NCBI GenBank assembly: GCA_024103355.1
Contig: JAGFIU010000010.1
Coordinates: forward strand, 62,001-126,000
DNA length: 64,000 nucleotides
Direction: 5' to 3'
From: Bacteroidota bacterium
GTDB taxonomy: Bacteria > Bacteroidota > Bacteroidia > NS11-12g > UBA955
A model generated the notes under the pieces. It was given only the letters and a program-made list of their open reading frames with translations, was not told the origin of the DNA and did no database searches. This document shows, piece by piece, positions 23,189-44,627 of the stretch (positions within the stretch are counted from its first letter, which is position 1; each line of letters opens with the position of its first letter). A program made the translations under genes and the position numbers.

Positions 23189-25054
23189 TCAACGTCCAAA
23201 ATAAACCAATAAAACTGAAATATCTGCCGGAGAAACACCGCTGATTCTACTGGCTTGTCCTAAGGTTTCGGGTTTAATTTTACTTAACTTCTGTCTTGAC
23301 TCACTACTGAGAGAGGTTATTTTACTATAATCAAATTCAGGATTTAGCTTAACATTTTCTAAGCGTTTAATTTTATCTGCCGTTTCTTTCTCTTTTTCAA
23401 TATACGATGCATATTTTAGGCTGATTTCAGTTTGAACCACATCATCTTCCGGCAATTGTCCGATAATTCTATTCAATGACTCAATAGACTTCAGATTTTC
23501 ATTGCTTAGCTGCGGTCTCAATAATATTTTGGAAGCTTTGATTTTTTGTTCTACCGGAGGGGTTCCGAGTTCTATCAAAATCGGGTTTATCTCTTCCGGA
23601 GTAAGATTCTGTTTATCTAGCTCTTTTGTTAAACTTTCAACATTTTTTAATTTTTCTTCTAGTCTTCTTTCGCGCGATTCATCTGCTAAACCTATTTTTC
23701 TTCCAATGGGTGTCAATCGAATATCCGCATTGTCTTGTCTCAACAAAATTCTGTATTCTGCTCTTGAGGTAAACATCCTATATGGTTCATCAGTTCCTTT
23801 ATTGATTAAATCATCAATTAAAACACCAATATAAGCATCAGATCGGTTGAGTATAAGGGGCTCATTTTCATTATTTTTATTATGTGCATTAATACCGGCA
23901 ATCAATCCTTGACAAGCGGCTTCTTCATAACCCGTTGTGCCGTTAATTTGTCCTGCAAAATACAGATTATCAATTATTTTAGTTTCCAAACTCATTTTTA
24001 ATTGAGTAGGTGGAAAATAATCATATTCAATTGCATAGCCGGGTCTAAACATTTTAGCATTTTCAAAACCCTTTATCTGTTTCAGTGCTCTTTGTTGTAT
24101 TTCTTCAGGCAAAGAAGAAGAAAATCCATTGATATACACTTCGATTGTATTCCAACCTTCCGGTTCAACAAAAATCTGATGTCTTGATCTCTCAGCAAAT
24201 CTGTTTATTTTATCCTCTATAGAAGGGCAATATCGCGGTCCCAGACCATGAATATCTCCCGCAAACATAGGGCTGTCAACGAATCCTTCTCTTAAAATAT
24301 CGTGTACCGTTTGGTTTGTATAAGTAATAAAACAGCTTCTTTGGTGTGTTAGCGGTTTGGTTTCATCAGAGAAAGAAAATTTTCCCGGGTTCTCATCACC
24401 TTTTTGTTCTTCCAAAACAGAATAATCAATTGTTCTACCGTCAAGTCTTGGTGGGGTACCGGTTTTCATTCTACCTGACTCAAATCCAAGAACTTCAAGG
24501 CTTGCGGTAATTCCGGTAGATGCTTTCTCTCCCATTCTGCCACCACCATAGTTTTTTCTGCCTATATGTATTCTTCCATTTAGAAATGTTCCGCTCGTAA
24601 CAATTACAGATTGAGAATAAATAGTGAGTCCCATTTGGGTTTTAACTCCCGTAACTCTATTGTTCTCAGTCAATATTTCTGTAACAGAGTCCTGGAAAAA
24701 ATCAACGTTGGAGTTTCGTTCCAATGTCAATCTCCATTCTTCACTAAATCTCATTCTATCGCTTTGTGCCCTGGGGCTCCACATGGCTGCTCCTTTAGAA
24801 CGATTTAACATTCTAAACTGAATCATTGTTTTATCGGTAATAATGCCAGACATTCCTCCTAAAGCATCTATCTCCCTGATAATCTGTCCTTTAGCCACAC
24901 CCCCCATCGCTGGATTACAACTCATTTTTGCCATTACTTCCATGTTCATTGTGATAAGCAATACCTTTGAACCGAGTTTAGCTGCTGCATGAGCAGCCTC
25001 ACAACCCGCATGTCCGGCTCCCACAACAATTATATCATATTTATCAAATTTCAT
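23189..25054 (-). CDS. mnmG: tRNA uridine-5-carboxymethylaminomethyl modification enzyme MnmG
   Basis: A 621-residue FAD enzyme that, with MnmE, builds the cmnm5 group on wobble U34 of several tRNAs. FAD-binding GAGHAGCEAA starts at residue 12, followed by MSCNPAMGGVAKGQI, TGTFLNGRIHIG, FEVGRMKTGTPPR-type block (SGRMKTGTPPRLDG), and DIHGLGPRYCPSIEDK. The C-terminus (QASRISGVSPADISVLLVYF) binds MnmE and tRNA. Full length. The next gene starts 2 nt after its stop, so the pair is probably co-transcribed. mnmG is a frequent neighbour of oriC in other phyla; here it is 9 kb from the candidate origin. Confidence 0.98.
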   Translation of the reverse strand: MKFDKYDIIVVGAGHAGCEAAHAAAKLGSKVLLITMNMEVMAKMSCNPAMGGVAKGQIIREIDALGGMSGIITDKTMIQFRMLNRSKGAAMWSPRAQSDRMRFSEEWRLTLERNSNVDFFQDSVTEILTENNRVTGVKTQMGLTIYSQSVIVTSGTFLNGRIHIGRKNYGGGRMGEKASTGITASLEVLGFESGRMKTGTPPRLDGRTIDYSVLEEQKGDENPGKFSFSDETKPLTHQRSCFITYTNQTVHDILREGFVDSPMFAGDIHGLGPRYCPSIEDKINRFAERSRHQIFVEPEGWNTIEVYINGFSSSLPEEIQQRALKQIKGFENAKMFRPGYAIEYDYFPPTQLKMSLETKIIDNLYFAGQINGTTGYEEAACQGLIAGINAHNKNNENEPLILNRSDAYIGVLIDDLINKGTDEPYRMFTSRAEYRILLRQDNADIRLTPIGRKIGLADESRERRLEEKLKNVESLTKELDKQNLTPEEINPILIELGTPPVEQKIKASKILLRPQLSNENLKSIESLNRIIGQLPEDDVVQTEISLKYASYIEKEKETADKIKRLENVKLNPEFDYSKITSLSSESRQKLSKIKPETLGQASRISGVSPADISVLLVYFGR

Positions 25055-25076
25055 CTTTATCTGGTTTCACGTGAAA

Positions 25077-25505
25077 CTAATATTTCATTGCAAATTTCAT
25101 AACATAAAAGTTTTCTTCGCGTTTCATTTCTTTTCTCTCTTCTTCGGTTGTATCATTAAAACCGCATAAATGAAGACAACCGTGAAAAATCACTCTAAGC
25201 AGCTCTTTGTGATAAGTTACATTATATTTTTTTGCATTAGATGCAACCATTTCCGAACTTATAAAAAGTTCAGCTTCTATAGGTTCATTTTCTTCGGAAT
25301 AGGAGAATGTAATAATGTCAGTATAATAATCATGGTTTAGAAAATTTTGATTGATTTCCAACAATGCTTCATCAGTTAAAAGAGTTATTGTAATTAAGGT
25401 GTATTTTTTCTTGTGGTCGTTCATTATGGCGTCTATTCCTGTTTTATAAACATCTTCAACAGATTTTGGAAACTCAAGGTCATATGTGTTGTTTAGTTCT
25501 ATCAT
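25077..25505 (-). CDS. ybeY: endoribonuclease YbeY (rRNA maturation)
   Basis: A 142-residue YbeY-type metalloprotein involved in 16S rRNA 3' end maturation and ribosome quality control. The metal motif is FHGCLHLCGFND around residues 109-120. Two zinc ligands are the usual His, but the third position is Asp instead of the His of H3xH5xH. From memory, other Bacteroidota YbeY proteins have a similar Lys-Asp or Asn-Asp pair here, so this is probably a lineage form and not a broken gene. It lies 22 nt upstream of mnmG and 4 nt downstream of the T9SS type B protein. Confidence 0.9.
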   Translation of the reverse strand: MIELNNTYDLEFPKSVEDVYKTGIDAIMNDHKKKYTLITITLLTDEALLEINQNFLNHDYYTDIITFSYSEENEPIEAELFISSEMVASNAKKYNVTYHKELLRVIFHGCLHLCGFNDTTEEERKEMKREENFYVMKFAMKY

Positions 25506-25509
25506 GGTA

Positions 25510-27291
25510 TTAATCTATCAAATAAAAAGTTCCTTTAAATTCAACGGCTTCTCCCAGTTCACCTTTAATTTTTGCAAAATAAATATAGGTTCCGGATTGA
25601 CAAAACTCTCCTGCACTATCGCGCCCATCCCAACCTTTTAATACGTTATGCGTCTCAAATATTTTCTCTCCCCAGCGATTATAAACCTGAAGAATAGAAG
25701 CATTGTTTTCTTCAATAATTCCAATTCCTACCGGCCCAAAGGTGGTATTAATTCCACGAGGAGCAAATGCATTTGGAAAATAAATAGCCAAATCTCTAAT
25801 AAAACAAAAAGAGTTTGAAAACGCAGTGTCTTGTCTTCCAAAAACATTAATATCATTTTCTATAGCTGAAACTACATAGCATAATTTATATGCATATTCT
25901 TGATGTTGATATACATCGAAAGATGTTGTTTGATTAGGATTTAAAACATCTATTAAATTCCAAGTTCCACGTGGAAAGATTTTTAGTCCGTATTGCTTAT
26001 GTACCTGATATTGTCCTGTTGTTTTTGCAAAAGTTGAATAGCTATTCCATGTTAATTCTGATTCTATTGATTTTTCTTCAACATTTAAAAGAATAGAATT
26101 TGATATTGGACTTGAGTCTTGTGGAATTACATAACCACATTCATCTTTATGAGTAATCTGATAATAATAAATAGTTGAATTTACTTCAACAGCTGTATCA
26201 ATAATAGAAATAGAGCCGGGAAAATCTTTTGCTTCATAGCTCTTATAAATAGAAAAGTGTGTGTTATCACTTGATTTTAACAAATTGATTGTTCCTGTCT
26301 TAAGTTTGCTCATAAAGTCAATTTGTATCTGTTGAGACTCAGTAACAGAAACTTTATAAATATTGTTTATTGCTCCCGTAGGTATTGGGGTTTCAAAACA
26401 AATTCTGTTTGATGTGCTGGTAACTCCTGAATCACTTATCATTTGAATTAGAACACAATATCTTCTTCCGGATTCTAAGTTTTCAATCTTAAAAGAATCG
26501 GTATTTGCATTAAGGGTTGCTTCGATTTGATAGTTTATAAATGAGTCGGGGCTTACTTTTATTAAGTAATTTTTAACATTAACTCCATGATAATGAGACC
26601 ATTGCAATGAAATTACTCTGCCACAAGTATCAAAACTTCCATTTAAAAAAATGGTATTGAGTCCATTTGAAATTGGTGAAGTATTTCCACAGCTGTCATA
26701 AGTTGCAAGAGCATATTTTTCAGACTGTTTTTCCGGGTTTCCATACAATGAATCCATAAAGAAATGTCCGAAAGTATCAGTTAATAACACATTGTTGTTA
26801 TCCATATAGTAAACGAAAAAACCCTTACTATCCTTTGCCGGATGAGGCTTCCAGCCCATGATTGTTTTTTGCGTTATTAAATCAACGCTTACGGAATCCA
26901 ACTCCCACTCTACAGGTTGTTCTACATCAACTTTCACGGTATCTGACACTAAAGAATCTGTGCCATTACATGCATATCGAGTTACAATGAAGAACTCCCA
27001 CTCTTTATTGTTTTTAAGTTTAATAGTTGCTGTAGATTGATTTAAAATGTTTTCGGAAGCAACAAATTCATAAAGAGATGATGGTTCGTCTCTACCGTAT
27101 ATTTGATAAGAAACAAAAGAACCACAGCTATCTGCAAAGGGAATCCATTTAATTGTTGCAGTAGAGTCTGATTTGTTTAAACATACTCCGGTTATATGGA
27201 CAGGTTTGTCTATCCCTAAAATTTGGTTTAAACTTACTATAAACAAAAAGAGAATAATAGTAAATTGCCTTATGAATTGGGTCCTGACCAC
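25510..27291 (-). CDS. fibronectin-type-III-like surface protein with T9SS type B (CHU_C) sorting domain
   Basis: A 593-residue secreted protein. A signal peptide (FTIILFLFIVSLNQILG) precedes four or so fibronectin-III-like repeats with typical interaction segments (ATIKWIPFADSCGSFVSYQIY, then ISLQWSHYHGVNVKNYLI). The final 90 residues (LAIYFPNAFAPRGINTTF, LQVYNRWGEKIFETHNVLKGWDG, SGTYIYFAKI, GEAVEFKGTFYLI) form the gliding-motility-associated C-terminal domain, the type B signal for T9SS export. The start appears to be GTG at 27291, overlapping the M16 gene by 22 bases; no ATG lies nearby. Likely a cell-surface adhesin or scaffold, which is inference. Confidence 0.85.
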   Translation of the reverse strand: MVRTQFIRQFTIILFLFIVSLNQILGIDKPVHITGVCLNKSDSTATIKWIPFADSCGSFVSYQIYGRDEPSSLYEFVASENILNQSTATIKLKNNKEWEFFIVTRYACNGTDSLVSDTVKVDVEQPVEWELDSVSVDLITQKTIMGWKPHPAKDSKGFFVYYMDNNNVLLTDTFGHFFMDSLYGNPEKQSEKYALATYDSCGNTSPISNGLNTIFLNGSFDTCGRVISLQWSHYHGVNVKNYLIKVSPDSFINYQIEATLNANTDSFKIENLESGRRYCVLIQMISDSGVTSTSNRICFETPIPTGAINNIYKVSVTESQQIQIDFMSKLKTGTINLLKSSDNTHFSIYKSYEAKDFPGSISIIDTAVEVNSTIYYYQITHKDECGYVIPQDSSPISNSILLNVEEKSIESELTWNSYSTFAKTTGQYQVHKQYGLKIFPRGTWNLIDVLNPNQTTSFDVYQHQEYAYKLCYVVSAIENDINVFGRQDTAFSNSFCFIRDLAIYFPNAFAPRGINTTFGPVGIGIIEENNASILQVYNRWGEKIFETHNVLKGWDGRDSAGEFCQSGTYIYFAKIKGELGEAVEFKGTFYLID

Positions 27292-28553
27292 GTATAAATT
27301 AACGATTTTGAGTCTAAATAATTTTGTGCTGCTTGTAGTATTTGTTCAGGTGTTAACTGATATATTTTTTTTCCTAAGATATTATACCACTCAATTGTTT
27401 GGTTTGTTTCTAACAAAGTAAAATGCCTTTCGGAATAAGACAAAAAATCATCAAAAAGGCTTTGTAGATTGCCGAGATAATAATTTTTAGCAGTTTCAAA
27501 CTCTTGCGTTCCGATAAGTTTATTTTGTAATAATTGAAACTCTTTAAGAATCTCTTGTTTTACTTCTTTTGCCTTGTCAACATTAATATCACCGGAAATT
27601 TCTATAAAGGCATTTTCTGCATAGTTTATAATTCTGCTTGAAACTCCGTAGGTCCATCCCTTTTCTTCGCGAATATTCTTCATAAGCCTTGAACCAAAAT
27701 AACCACCTAAAATTAGGTTTAAAAATGCGATATCAATATAGTCTTTTGCATTTCTTGGAGCTACTTCCAATCTTGCTTTAAATGAAGCTTGATTTGCGTT
27801 TGAAAGTTTAAAAAACGTATTGGTTATTGAGGGTAATTCTTTAACAAACTCAATTGGTTTTGCAGAAAAGGAAATTTCGTCAGTAAGTTTGTGTTTGAAA
27901 AGTGTTTCTAGGACATTAAATTTGGATTTTAATTCCGGTGATGAGCTTAGAATTATAAACATTTTAGAAAAGTTTTTTCTAAACTCATCCAAAAGCATTT
28001 CACGTGAAACGAGGTTATAATCATCTTCTTGAGTGGGTTTGCCTAAAATCGACTGTTCTCCAAACCAAAGTTTATTAATCAGTGAAGCGCATTGATAAGT
28101 TGTTTTTTGTTGTTGAACTCTGAAGTTATTGATTTTCTGCTTCTTAAGAATTTTAAGTTCATCTTCTGGAAAGTTTGAATGGTTTACAGCTTCTGCAATA
28201 AGGTTTATGATTTCTTCAAAATATCTGTTCAAACCATATACAGTAAGAACGGTTTTATAGTAGCTTGTAGCGATATTGGTATAAGACCCGTAGAAATCAA
28301 GGTTTTCATTGAGTTGTTGGGCAGAATACTTTTCGGTTCCCGACAAAAGCATCTCTCCGCAGATTATGCCCGACTTTGCGCTTATACCGTTTCCTATACC
28401 TGCATTAGGAAAAACAATATCCAATCTAAAAACGTCTGTATCTTCTTTAAAGAACCCAAAGATTCCTTTTGACACTTTTTGAGGGTTTGTTAAAACGGGT
28501 AAAGAAAGAGGATAAACCCGCGGTTCTATTTTTCTGAAATCTTGGTTGCTCAT
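27270..28553 (-). CDS. M16 peptidase family protein, non-catalytic subunit
   Basis: A 427-residue M16 (insulinase/pitrilysin) protein that lacks the zinc motif: where HxxEH would lie, the sequence reads GIICGEMLLSG. It keeps the C-terminal R...Y pair (SRLMKNIREEKGWTYGVSS), which in two-subunit M16B peptidases sits on the non-catalytic partner and shapes the active cavity. It overlaps the catalytic M16 gene by four bases (ATGA) and the next gene by 22 bases. I infer that the two form one heterodimeric peptidase. Confidence 0.88.
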   Translation of the reverse strand: MSNQDFRKIEPRVYPLSLPVLTNPQKVSKGIFGFFKEDTDVFRLDIVFPNAGIGNGISAKSGIICGEMLLSGTEKYSAQQLNENLDFYGSYTNIATSYYKTVLTVYGLNRYFEEIINLIAEAVNHSNFPEDELKILKKQKINNFRVQQQKTTYQCASLINKLWFGEQSILGKPTQEDDYNLVSREMLLDEFRKNFSKMFIILSSSPELKSKFNVLETLFKHKLTDEISFSAKPIEFVKELPSITNTFFKLSNANQASFKARLEVAPRNAKDYIDIAFLNLILGGYFGSRLMKNIREEKGWTYGVSSRIINYAENAFIEISGDINVDKAKEVKQEILKEFQLLQNKLIGTQEFETAKNYYLGNLQSLFDDFLSYSERHFTLLETNQTIEWYNILGKKIYQLTPEQILQAAQNYLDSKSLIYTWSGPNS

Positions 28554-32670: not shown

Positions 32671-33684
32671 TTAAAAGGGTGTAAACTGCGAAAGAAACCT
32701 AACATCATTATAAAACATTGTTCTGATGTCTTTTATACCGTATTTCAGCATAGCTATTCTATCAACTCCAAGACCAAAAGCAAAACCTGAATATTGCTCT
32801 GTATCAATTCCTACATTTTTCAAAACATTGACATCAACCATACCGCAACCCAATATTTCCAACCAACCGGTTCCTTTTGTCAATCTATAATCTTCTTCTG
32901 TTTCTGTTCCTAAAAAAACATCCATTTCTGCACTGGGTTCAGTAAAAGGAAAGTAGGATGCTCTAAATCTTACCGGCAAATCTTTTCCAAAAAATTCTCT
33001 TACAAAGAAATAAAGTGTTTGTTTTAAATCAGCAAAACTTACATTCTTGTCAACATAAAGTCCTTCTATCTGATGAAAAAAACAATTTGATCTGGCGGAT
33101 ACATCTTCATTTCTGTAAACTCTACCCGGACAAATAACCCTTACTGGCGGATTTTCTCTTTCCAAAACCCTGATTTGTACAGAGGAAGTATGTGTTCTTA
33201 TTGCAAAATCATCTTCTACAAAAAAAGTATCTTGCATATCTCTTGCCGGATGGTTTTCTGCAAAATTCAGTGCTGAAAAATTGTGGTAATCATCCTCTAT
33301 ATCAGGTCCTTCTTCTGTTGAAAAACCTATTCTTGAAAAAATATCGCTTATTTCTTTCATAACAGCAGAAATTGGGTGTTTTCCTCCAAAAGAAATGCTG
33401 TTTACAGGAAGAGATAAATCTTTAGATTTATCTTGATTTCCATCTTTATTCTCAAATTTTTCTTTTGCTTCCTCCCATTTCAACCTTGCCCTTTCTTTTA
33501 ATGTGTTTAACTCCTTTCCTACCTCTTTTTTTAATGAATTGTCAATAGTTCTAAAATCATCAACAAGTTCATTCACCAACCCTTTTTTAACTAAAAATTT
33601 CAGTCTGAAATCCTCGTTTGATTTTGCTGAATCTATCACGAATTCTTCGACTTGTTTCAAAACTGACTTTATTTTCTCAATCAT
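32671..33684 (-). CDS. pheS: phenylalanine--tRNA ligase alpha subunit
   Basis: A 337-residue PheRS alpha chain. The N-terminal coiled coil (residues 1-85) binds tRNA. Class II motifs follow: HPISAVMKEISDIFSRIGF, DTFFVEDDFAIRTHTSSVQIR, FHQIEGLYVDKNVSF, FTEPSAEMDV and GFAFGLGVDRIAMLKYGI. It pairs with PheT, encoded elsewhere, to charge tRNA-Phe. It is the last leftward gene before the long gap and the first from the candidate origin on that side. Promoter box 22 nt upstream. Confidence 0.97.
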   Translation of the reverse strand: MIEKIKSVLKQVEEFVIDSAKSNEDFRLKFLVKKGLVNELVDDFRTIDNSLKKEVGKELNTLKERARLKWEEAKEKFENKDGNQDKSKDLSLPVNSISFGGKHPISAVMKEISDIFSRIGFSTEEGPDIEDDYHNFSALNFAENHPARDMQDTFFVEDDFAIRTHTSSVQIRVLERENPPVRVICPGRVYRNEDVSARSNCFFHQIEGLYVDKNVSFADLKQTLYFFVREFFGKDLPVRFRASYFPFTEPSAEMDVFLGTETEEDYRLTKGTGWLEILGCGMVDVNVLKNVGIDTEQYSGFAFGLGVDRIAMLKYGIKDIRTMFYNDVRFLSQFTPF

Positions 33685-33706
33685 TTTCTTGTTTTGTTAG
33701 AGAGCG

Positions 33707-33714
33707 CAAAAATA
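33707..33714 (-). promoter_or_regulatory. -7 promoter box for pheS-purK
   Basis: Minus-strand TATTTTTG followed by CGC, a full TAnnTTTG match, 22 nt before the pheS ATG. It bounds the non-coding region on its left side. Confidence 0.55.
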
Positions 33715-33720
33715 ACCAAG

Positions 33721-34189
33721 CTTTTGTTTTTTGCTGATTTAATAAAACGGTTGCTTCAAAAACGTTTCTAACAATTTAAAATAATAAAAATGAAATTTAA
33801 ATTTACTTTTGATTAGTTACCGATGTGAATAGTGGTAAAACTTATTTTTAATGGAATTTGATAAATTGGAAATAAACAAGTCATCAACATAAAAAATAGC
33901 TTAGAACTATTGAAAATTCATATTACCAACAATTTTATGAACCAGTGAATAAAGATAAATGTGGGTCTTTTTTTATCTATAATCATTGTGAGTTCTGTGT
34001 ATGTATCTGAGATTTTAATCCACAAGAATTAACACAAGAAATTTTTATCTTACGCAAAATGTTACTTATCCAAACTTATCCCCATGTATTCACAAGCTTT
34101 GTTTGTAACTATGGTAATGCTATATTTAGCAAGGTATTTACCATTTAAAAGTAAAACGGATTAATATTTGCCGTACAGAAAACAGAAAT
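33721..34189. other. candidate chromosomal replication origin (non-coding, DnaA-box-like sites, AT-rich)
   Basis: The long gap between divergent genes pheS and a lipoprotein gene holds no ORF or RNA that I can see. It contains six 9-mers one mismatch from TTATNCACA: 33824-33832 and 33944-33952 (inverted), and 34016-34024, 34066-34074, 34076-34084 and 34086-34094 (direct). A stretch near 33770-33810 is almost pure A/T. Gene direction flips here: 30 of 32 genes to the left run left and 19 of 28 to the right run right, as expected when forks leave this point. In many Bacteroidota oriC is not next to dnaA. This is inference, because no skew calculation or binding data were available. Confidence 0.5.
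34066..34094 (+). promoter_or_regulatory. triplet of DnaA-box-like 9-mers
   Basis: Three direct 9-mers stand one base apart: TTATCCAAA (34066-34074), TTATCCCCA (34076-34084) and GTATTCACA (34086-34094). Each is one mismatch from the DnaA box TTATNCACA. The regular 10-base spacing, about one helix turn, puts all three on the same face of DNA. Confidence 0.45.
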
Positions 34190-34840
34190 ATGAGAACCGT
34201 TTTCATTTTATTAGGATTGTTCCTTTTGTTGTCTTGTTATCAGGAAAACCATTATTACAACACAAAAGAATACACAGAAAAAACAGACTCTCTCCAAAAA
34301 AGAATTGAAGAATTGGAAAGCCTAATAGAAGTAAAGAGAACACCAGAAAAACAACCAAAAGAAGAAGAAGTAAAAATACCAACCAAACCAAAAATAAAAG
34401 AAAAGAAAGTAATCCCCAAAAAAATAGTTCAGGAAAAAGACACAAACACAATCTTTTTTAAAAATGGCGGAATCTCGGTGACATACGGGATAAAAAGAGA
34501 CAGCCGTCAGCTCATCAGGATATATGACGGTAAAGGAAATATTTTATTTAAGTTTGAAAATATTCAACTGAGTTATCAGGTTAATACAACATTATGTTTT
34601 AGAGAAAACAACTCAGTAAAAGCAGCAGAAACAAGTATGAACCCGGGAGCAAGTATGTATTGGTATGAAACCTATTATACTTTTGATACAGACAATCAGC
34701 CATTGACAAAAATTGAAAAACGTTTGCCCTCAATGACAATAGAAGATGCTATGGGAGAAAAATATTTTTGGAACAAAAACACTAAAAAATGGATTAAGCA
34801 AGAGATTATTATCGAAACAAATCCCATACCTAGTCAATAA
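34190..34840 (+). CDS. lipoprotein with short coiled coil and basic linker, unknown function
   Basis: A 216-residue predicted lipoprotein: lipobox LLLSC (Cys16), a short coiled-coil segment (DSLQKRIEELESLIEV, about residues 33-48), a Lys/Glu/Pro-rich linker (residues 49-80), then a C-terminal domain of about 130 residues (FFKNGGISVTYGIKRDSRQLIRIYD, ASMYWYETYYTFDTDNQPLTKIEKRLPSM) that I cannot assign. A near-consensus AATATTTG box lies 19 nt upstream. It is the first rightward gene after the candidate origin and converges with yggS. Confidence 0.65.
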   Translation: MRTVFILLGLFLLLSCYQENHYYNTKEYTEKTDSLQKRIEELESLIEVKRTPEKQPKEEEVKIPTKPKIKEKKVIPKKIVQEKDTNTIFFKNGGISVTYGIKRDSRQLIRIYDGKGNILFKFENIQLSYQVNTTLCFRENNSVKAAETSMNPGASMYWYETYYTFDTDNQPLTKIEKRLPSMTIEDAMGEKYFWNKNTKKWIKQEIIIETNPIPSQ

Positions 34841-39229: not shown

Positions 39230-40354
39230 TTGGAGAATATAAAATCAAAAAAGACCGTTTGCCAACTCAGTTCATTGCATTATGCAACCGATACACGCAT
39301 CTTTTATAAATATGCACTGAGCCTGTCAACCAAATACAAGGTTGTGGTGGTCGGAGTGCACCCGCAAAAAGAGGAGATAAATGGGGTACTTATTATACCT
39401 TTCAGAGAGTATAAAAGCAGGGTTTTTAGGATTTTTACATCATGGTTTCTTATGTTTTTCAAAGCGTTGAAAATCAAAGCAGACCTCTACCATATTCACG
39501 ACCCGGAGTTGATGCCTTGCGCAATTCTATTGAGGGCAATTGGAAAAAAGGTGATAGTCGATGTACACGAAAACATTGCCGAAGACATTTTTGATAAGGA
39601 ATGGATAAAAAACAAAAGAATCACCTACTCTATTTTTGACAGGATTGAACATATTGCTTGCAAAAAATCTCCCGTTGTATTGGCAGAAGCATCCTATTTG
39701 AAACGCTATGAAAAATTTGCACCTGACATCACACAGATTTATAACTATGTAGAACCCGATTTTTTCCGACAATTTCAAAGTAACGATAGAGACCCCTTAC
39801 ATCTTTTTTATATTGGTATCATACTCGAGAGCAGGTGTATAGCAGAAATTATGGATGCTATGAAGGTTCTACACGAACGCAACTTTCCGGTTCATTTTCA
39901 CTGTGTGGGCAGACTATATACTCGTATAGAAAACTTGATAATGACACACAAGCATTACGAAGAACTTAAACCCTACTTGCATTTTTATGGTAGAAAAAAC
40001 CTGGAGGAAGGCTATATAGTATCAAAACAATGCGGAATAGGTTTGTGTTTAATTAAGCCCATGAAAAATTCGGTTGAATCAAAACCCACCAAACTTTTTG
40101 AGTACATGGCATGTGGCTTACCTATCATTACAAGCAATTTTCCATTGTATCGGCAATTGGTTGAAGACACCCAAACCGGACTGACAGTAAACCCCGAATC
40201 AGTTTCAGAAATTTCTGATTCAATTCAAAGGCTGATTCAAGACAAAGAATTGACAAAAAGATTTGCTCAAAATGGAAATTTCTCAGCACAGAAATTATAC
40301 AATTGGGAATCAGAGAGGGTGAAACTCCTTGATTTATATGCTAAACACGTTTGA
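39230..40354 (+). CDS. GT4-type glycosyltransferase
   Basis: A 374-residue glycosyltransferase of the GT-B fold, GT4 group. Marks are LSSLHYATDTRIFYKYA at the N-terminus, YHIHDPELMPCAILLRA, VIVDVHENIAEDI, and the donor-binding block SVESKPTKLFEYMACGLPIITSNF with the conserved EYMACG-type segment. It would transfer a sugar from an NDP donor to a glycan or lipid; the target is unknown. The start is probably TTG at 39230 since no ATG is near. The stop is 88 nt before rplM, which has its own promoter. Confidence 0.87.
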   Translation: MENIKSKKTVCQLSSLHYATDTRIFYKYALSLSTKYKVVVVGVHPQKEEINGVLIIPFREYKSRVFRIFTSWFLMFFKALKIKADLYHIHDPELMPCAILLRAIGKKVIVDVHENIAEDIFDKEWIKNKRITYSIFDRIEHIACKKSPVVLAEASYLKRYEKFAPDITQIYNYVEPDFFRQFQSNDRDPLHLFYIGIILESRCIAEIMDAMKVLHERNFPVHFHCVGRLYTRIENLIMTHKHYEELKPYLHFYGRKNLEEGYIVSKQCGIGLCLIKPMKNSVESKPTKLFEYMACGLPIITSNFPLYRQLVEDTQTGLTVNPESVSEISDSIQRLIQDKELTKRFAQNGNFSAQKLYNWESERVKLLDLYAKHV

Positions 40355-44491: not shown

Positions 44492-44521
44492 CAACCGATT
44501 TCGGTCATTCACATAAGAAAT

Positions 44522-44621
44522 GTTATCAAGAAAGGTGGAGGGAATGGACCCTGAGAAACCTTGGCAACCTCTTTTTTTAAGAAAGGTGCTACATTCTACT
44601 CAATTCGTTGAGAGAGATAAC
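44522..44621 (+). promoter_or_regulatory. SAM-I (S-box) riboswitch aptamer
   Basis: The leader matches the S-box pattern: GTTATCAAGAAAGGTGGAGG (44522 on), then GGACCCTGAGAAACC and GGCAACC, then AAGGTGCTAC and a hairpin CTCAA-TTCG-TTGAG, closed by GATAAC at 44616-44621 which pairs with GTTATC at 44522-44527 (P1). The conserved GGTGGAGGG, GAAACC and GGCAACC blocks match well. S-box RNAs sense S-adenosylmethionine. Upstream of metH-metF, so it should lower methionine synthesis when SAM is plentiful. No obvious U-tract terminator follows, so control may act on translation or on an unusual stem. Confidence 0.92.
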
Positions 44622-44627
44622 CCAACA

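Follow-up and report, generated by a model that had tools for sequence, protein, structure and literature searches.

The DNA analysed here, hereafter the window, is a stretch of 64,000 nt (C15:62001-126000) of an uncultured Bacteroidota genome that comprises 2.3 Mb in 60 contigs. At positions 33685-34189, the window contains a non-coding, AT-rich gap of 505 bp (26% G+C, 74% A+T), bordered by two genes that read away from it. On the left is pheS (32671-33684, minus strand), which encodes the phenylalanyl-tRNA synthetase alpha chain (PF01409, E 2.9e-97) and has its start codon at 33684. On the right, the next ORF (34190-34840, plus strand) encodes a 216-aa protein with a lipoprotein-like N terminus and no Pfam match. 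Gene direction changes at the gap: approximately 29 of the 31 genes to its left are leftward, and about two thirds of those to its right are rightward, which bears out the flip reported in a first-pass annotation of the sequence (30 of 32 leftward, 19 of 28 rightward).

Exactly six sites in the gap lie within one mismatch of TTATNCACA (DnaA-box-like sites, hereafter boxes); no exact match to TTATNCACA was found in the gap, each of the six carrying one mismatch. The boxes occupy both strands. Two are on the minus strand: CTATTCACA at 33824-33832, the most conserved box, which faces an AT-rich stretch, and TTATTCACT at 33944-33952, where a genome of the same genus has an exact TTATTCACA. The remainder are on the plus strand, comprising TAATCCACA at 34016-34024 and a triplet with exact 10 bp spacing at 34066-34094 (TTATCCAAA at 34066, TTATCCCCA at 34076 and GTATTCACA at 34086). 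The first-pass annotation had listed six one-mismatch 9-mers in a 505-base non-coding gap, three of them in a 10-base phase, and all were found where it had placed them. It had also expected about one such 9-mer by chance, and this was right, since simulation of the gap with a first-order Markov model yielded 1.10 ± 1.03 boxes and none of the 500 runs reached six. The gap is the densest spot on the 204-kb contig, and the sole position with six boxes in 505 bp. A cluster of boxes in non-coding DNA beyond chance, as seen here, is characteristic of a DnaA-dependent oriC. The second-best spots, at ~8.1 kb and 22.1-22.6 kb, lie within coding sequence and were judged to be chance occurrences.

An AT-rich element beside the boxes, another feature of oriC, was recognized by composition only. 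The 50 bp of highest A+T content in the gap are 33760-33809 (88% A+T), in agreement with the AT-rich stretch that had been noted near 33770-33810, and we define 33760-33823, on composition, as a candidate unwinding element. The most conserved arrangement in the region is the 33824 box and then AT-rich DNA, separated by a short spacer that reads TCGG here and CAGC in many relatives; the 28 bp around this box are identical in the same-genus genome. A Bacillus subtilis-type basal unwinding system, as judged by DnaA-trios, was considered and rejected. With a loose definition of the trio motif (3'-GAT-5'), the window has a run of two only, and the longest runs beside the conserved box in 68 relatives averaged 3.46, against 3.44 in shuffled sequences.

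Nucleotide skew was computed over the whole 204-kb contig. The cumulative AT-skew minimum (window position 33740) and the cumulative purine-skew minimum (33698) both fall at the gap, and the cumulative GC-skew minimum lies 5.1 kb to the right of it, at 39337. The first-pass annotation had named a GC-skew minimum far from the gap as grounds for refuting its reading; this check, run on the contig and on stretches of two relatives, did not refute it. The AT and purine skews are not independent of the argument from gene direction, because both track gene direction as well as replication. We nevertheless count a skew minimum among the origin features found, on the basis of the AT and purine minima of this contig and a GC minimum in a relative (described below), with the contig's own GC minimum 5.1 kb off.

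The gene mnmG (gidA) is a classical neighbour of replication origins, and CACGTGA forms the core of parS, to which the segregation protein ParB binds. In the window, mnmG lies at 23189-25054 on the minus strand (PF01134, E 7.6e-163, at C15:85867-87036). Only four TTNCACGTGNAA sites occur in the 2.3-Mb genome, three of them at window positions 25065-28009, 6-9 kb from the gap: parS-like palindromes TTTCACGTGAAA directly upstream of mnmG (25065-25076), and TTCCACGTGGAA (25965-25976) and a second TTTCACGTGAAA (27998-28009) near it. A ParB gene is also encoded in the genome. Origin-proximal parS, as found here, is common but not universal among DnaA-dependent origins. The mnmG gene adjoins oriC in Escherichia coli and Yersinia (PMC10225481), and parS is located most often near the origin (PMC7333895). 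Of seven relatives checked, all but G001 have pairs of parS sites at 4-8 kb from pheS. In about 19 relatives (L067, L071, L073, L085, L099 and others), a GTTTCACGTGAAAC-like parS palindrome is located within the origin gap; in the window and several relatives parS is instead at or near mnmG, a few kilobases from the gap.

The genome encodes one DnaA (PF00308, E 5.5e-62), in which the C-terminal DNA-binding motif GGRDHSTVIHA is intact, so a cognate initiator for the boxes is present. Its gene is not beside the gap: dnaA is on contig C41, not C15. Adjacency to dnaA is common but not universal among origins, and is therefore not required of an oriC. The region upstream of dnaA was examined as a rival origin and rejected, since its 3.5 kb contain no more than five one-mismatch boxes, which do not cluster.

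A non-coding gap, mostly of 300-480 bp, is also present upstream of pheS in other members of the order and in neighbouring lineages, and its length, composition and box layout are conserved. In these genomes mnmG is followed, in some after an intervening methyltransferase gene, by an Ig-like lipoprotein gene, the gap and pheS; mnmG and the methyltransferase were identified by eye from C-terminal sequences, without a family search. The last 400 bp of 84 distinct gaps contain 230 boxes, versus 86 ± 7 in shuffled sequences and 42 in coding stretches of equal length from 79 loci. Relative to pheS, boxes recur across relatives on the minus strand at approximately -400 to -385 and -340, and on the plus strand at approximately -280 and -140. 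The six sites of the window (-410, -400, -390, -340, -268 and -148) belong to the same position classes: same-strand sites recur at about -410 to -385, where the triplet lies, and the 34016 box occupies the recurrent position near -340. The 33824 box is the most widely kept, with a site within one mismatch of NTATNCACA at about -175 to -95 in 68 of 85 relatives. An unbiased 7-mer search of 85 gaps recovered ATCCACA in 46 (8 expected) and ATTCACA in 49 (13 expected), as well as the parS core CACGTGA. Among 40 loci of the class, mostly from other families, a long box-rich gap at pheS was present only in G065 (five boxes) and G151 (seven boxes), which indicates that the link to pheS is lineage-specific and not general to Bacteroidia; G217 has four boxes without a gap. 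The motif TGCGACAT occurs in 21 of the 85 pheS gaps (L055, L070, L079, L083, L093 and others), in several of them as two inverted copies some 28 bp apart. The window does not contain it, and it corresponds to no site known to us.

Skew was also read in stretches of two relatives. G039, which belongs to the same taxonomic order, has a contig of 2,408,626 bp (matched to record JAGYJG010000001.1, locus L051). In the 360 kb around pheS, its cumulative GC-skew minimum is at 2,107,903, 102 bp upstream of the pheS start at 2,108,005, whereas parS sits 4 kb off. In 20 samples along the contig, GC skew was mostly negative from approximately 1.44 to 2.04 Mb and positive beyond pheS, and a clear switch from negative to positive was found only at pheS. 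The GC-skew minimum and the sign change together place the G039 origin in the gap homologous to that of the window. The G039 gap has four boxes and denser spots exist elsewhere, so it could not have been found by box count alone. The dnaA gene of G039 (C1:1256951) is 851 kb from pheS, on the terminus side, near the turn of GC skew from positive to negative.

In G001, the same-genus genome, the homologous gap contains seven boxes, including an exact one; nowhere else in 240 kb are there more than four. The skew minima of G001 are scattered over 178-231 kb, with the gap at 212 kb and with those of AT and purine skew at 178 kb, nearer to parS than to pheS. Within C4:173000-212250, the parS sites are 36-39 kb from the pheS gap and several skew turns lie between them, which suggests that G001 carries a rearrangement next to the origin.

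Taken from sequence, these observations make it highly likely that the 505-bp gap is the chromosomal oriC of this Bacteroidota genome and that it is of the DnaA type. The first-pass proposal that forks start at the gap thus gains support from the AT and purine minima of the contig, the GC minimum of G039, the boxes conserved in ~85 relatives and the parS cluster. The origin is very probably of the ordinary bacterial kind, located in an unannotated place distant from dnaA. As predicted here, the arrangement mnmG-parS-oriC-pheS is specific to this part of Bacteroidia.

The strongest competing explanation, which we nonetheless consider improbable, is that the origin lies nearby, in the mnmG/parS segment at 23-28 kb or at about 39 kb, and that the gap's boxes serve to titrate DnaA or in regulation. 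The contig GC-skew minimum at 39337, the parS cluster at 25-28 kb, and the position of the G001 AT and purine minima close to parS and not to pheS would all fit such an arrangement. Against this, neither the contig nor the 240 kb of G001 contains an equally dense box cluster, the GC minimum of G039 is at pheS and not at parS, and among relatives the gap is conserved in length, composition and box arrangement.

Still less probable, in our judgement, is that the gap serves pheS as a long regulatory leader (an attenuator, an RNA element or a DnaA-controlled promoter) and has no origin function. The gap immediately precedes pheS as the gene is read, and a length of ~300-480 bp is conserved, which would suit a leader. 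However, the gap matches no Rfam family and the pheS-sense strand showed no unusual RNA folding (z -0.81), which makes an RNA leader unlikely; furthermore, the boxes are on both strands, most other Bacteroidia families sampled do not have such a gap at pheS, and the skew minima and parS clustering would be left unexplained. A chance cluster at a random change of gene direction, to which the single mismatch in every site and the 74% A+T content of the gap might point, is excluded in practice by the simulations, by the conserved box excess in 84 relatives and by the G001 gap, which alone in 240 kb exceeds four boxes.

Computation showed the clustered boxes and their conservation, together with the skew minima and the grouping of parS sites, and from these we infer DnaA binding and initiation at the proposed oriC. 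DnaA, made from a gene on another contig, would bind the boxes, with the triplet at 34066-34094, the 34016 box and the opposite-facing 33944 and 33824 boxes jointly nucleating a DnaA complex. The complex would open the AT-rich DNA at 33760-33823 beside the 33824 box, and helicase loading would follow. Two forks would then depart, one leftward through pheS and mnmG, the other rightward through the ribosomal-protein genes rplM and rpsB, and tsf. The parS sites at mnmG may then be what the Par proteins move into the daughter cells first.

The proposed origin resembles the E. coli type, located between mnmG (gidA) and mioC, in being a non-coding gap of a few hundred base pairs with DnaA boxes in both orientations, an AT-rich stretch on one side, mnmG within ~9 kb and no directly adjacent dnaA. 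Unlike E. coli oriC, it is flanked by pheS and a lipoprotein-like gene and contains no exact TTATNCACA, and its genome has both parS and ParB; E. coli is not known to have a chromosomal parS. With the B. subtilis oriC and its basal unwinding system it shares a conserved box that faces an AT-rich stretch across a short, less AT-rich spacer, but it differs in having no DnaA-trio run above chance and no adjacent dnaA. The features used here (skew minimum, boxes and indicator genes) are the same as those by which Ori-Finder and DoriC origins are scored. In Ori-Finder 2022 the indicator genes depend on lineage, because species differ in the genes adjacent to their origins (PMC10225481). In a literature search of mainly open-access papers, we found no description of a pheS-adjacent origin in Bacteroidetes.

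If our assignment is correct, the origin is now fixed for an uncultured Bacteroidota lineage in which a search beside dnaA would mislead: this usual shortcut would miss the origin because it adjoins pheS and is distant from dnaA. A correct origin is needed for estimates of growth rate from read depth, for chromosome maps and for studies of gene position, and the layout conserved in ~85 relatives offers data for modelling origin anatomy specifically in Bacteroidota. We speculate that, in a large uncultured part of Bacteroidia, the origin settled into the arrangement mnmG-parS-oriC-pheS as dnaA was displaced to a distant site (on the terminus side in one relative), and that opening may proceed without DnaA-trios through a conserved box, short spacer and AT-rich element of its own; this broader model is a tentative one, with a fairly low chance of being right.

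Elsewhere in the window, a SAM riboswitch (44520-44623, 79.8 bits) was identified directly before metH, which encodes the B12-dependent methionine synthase and is followed by an MTHFR gene.
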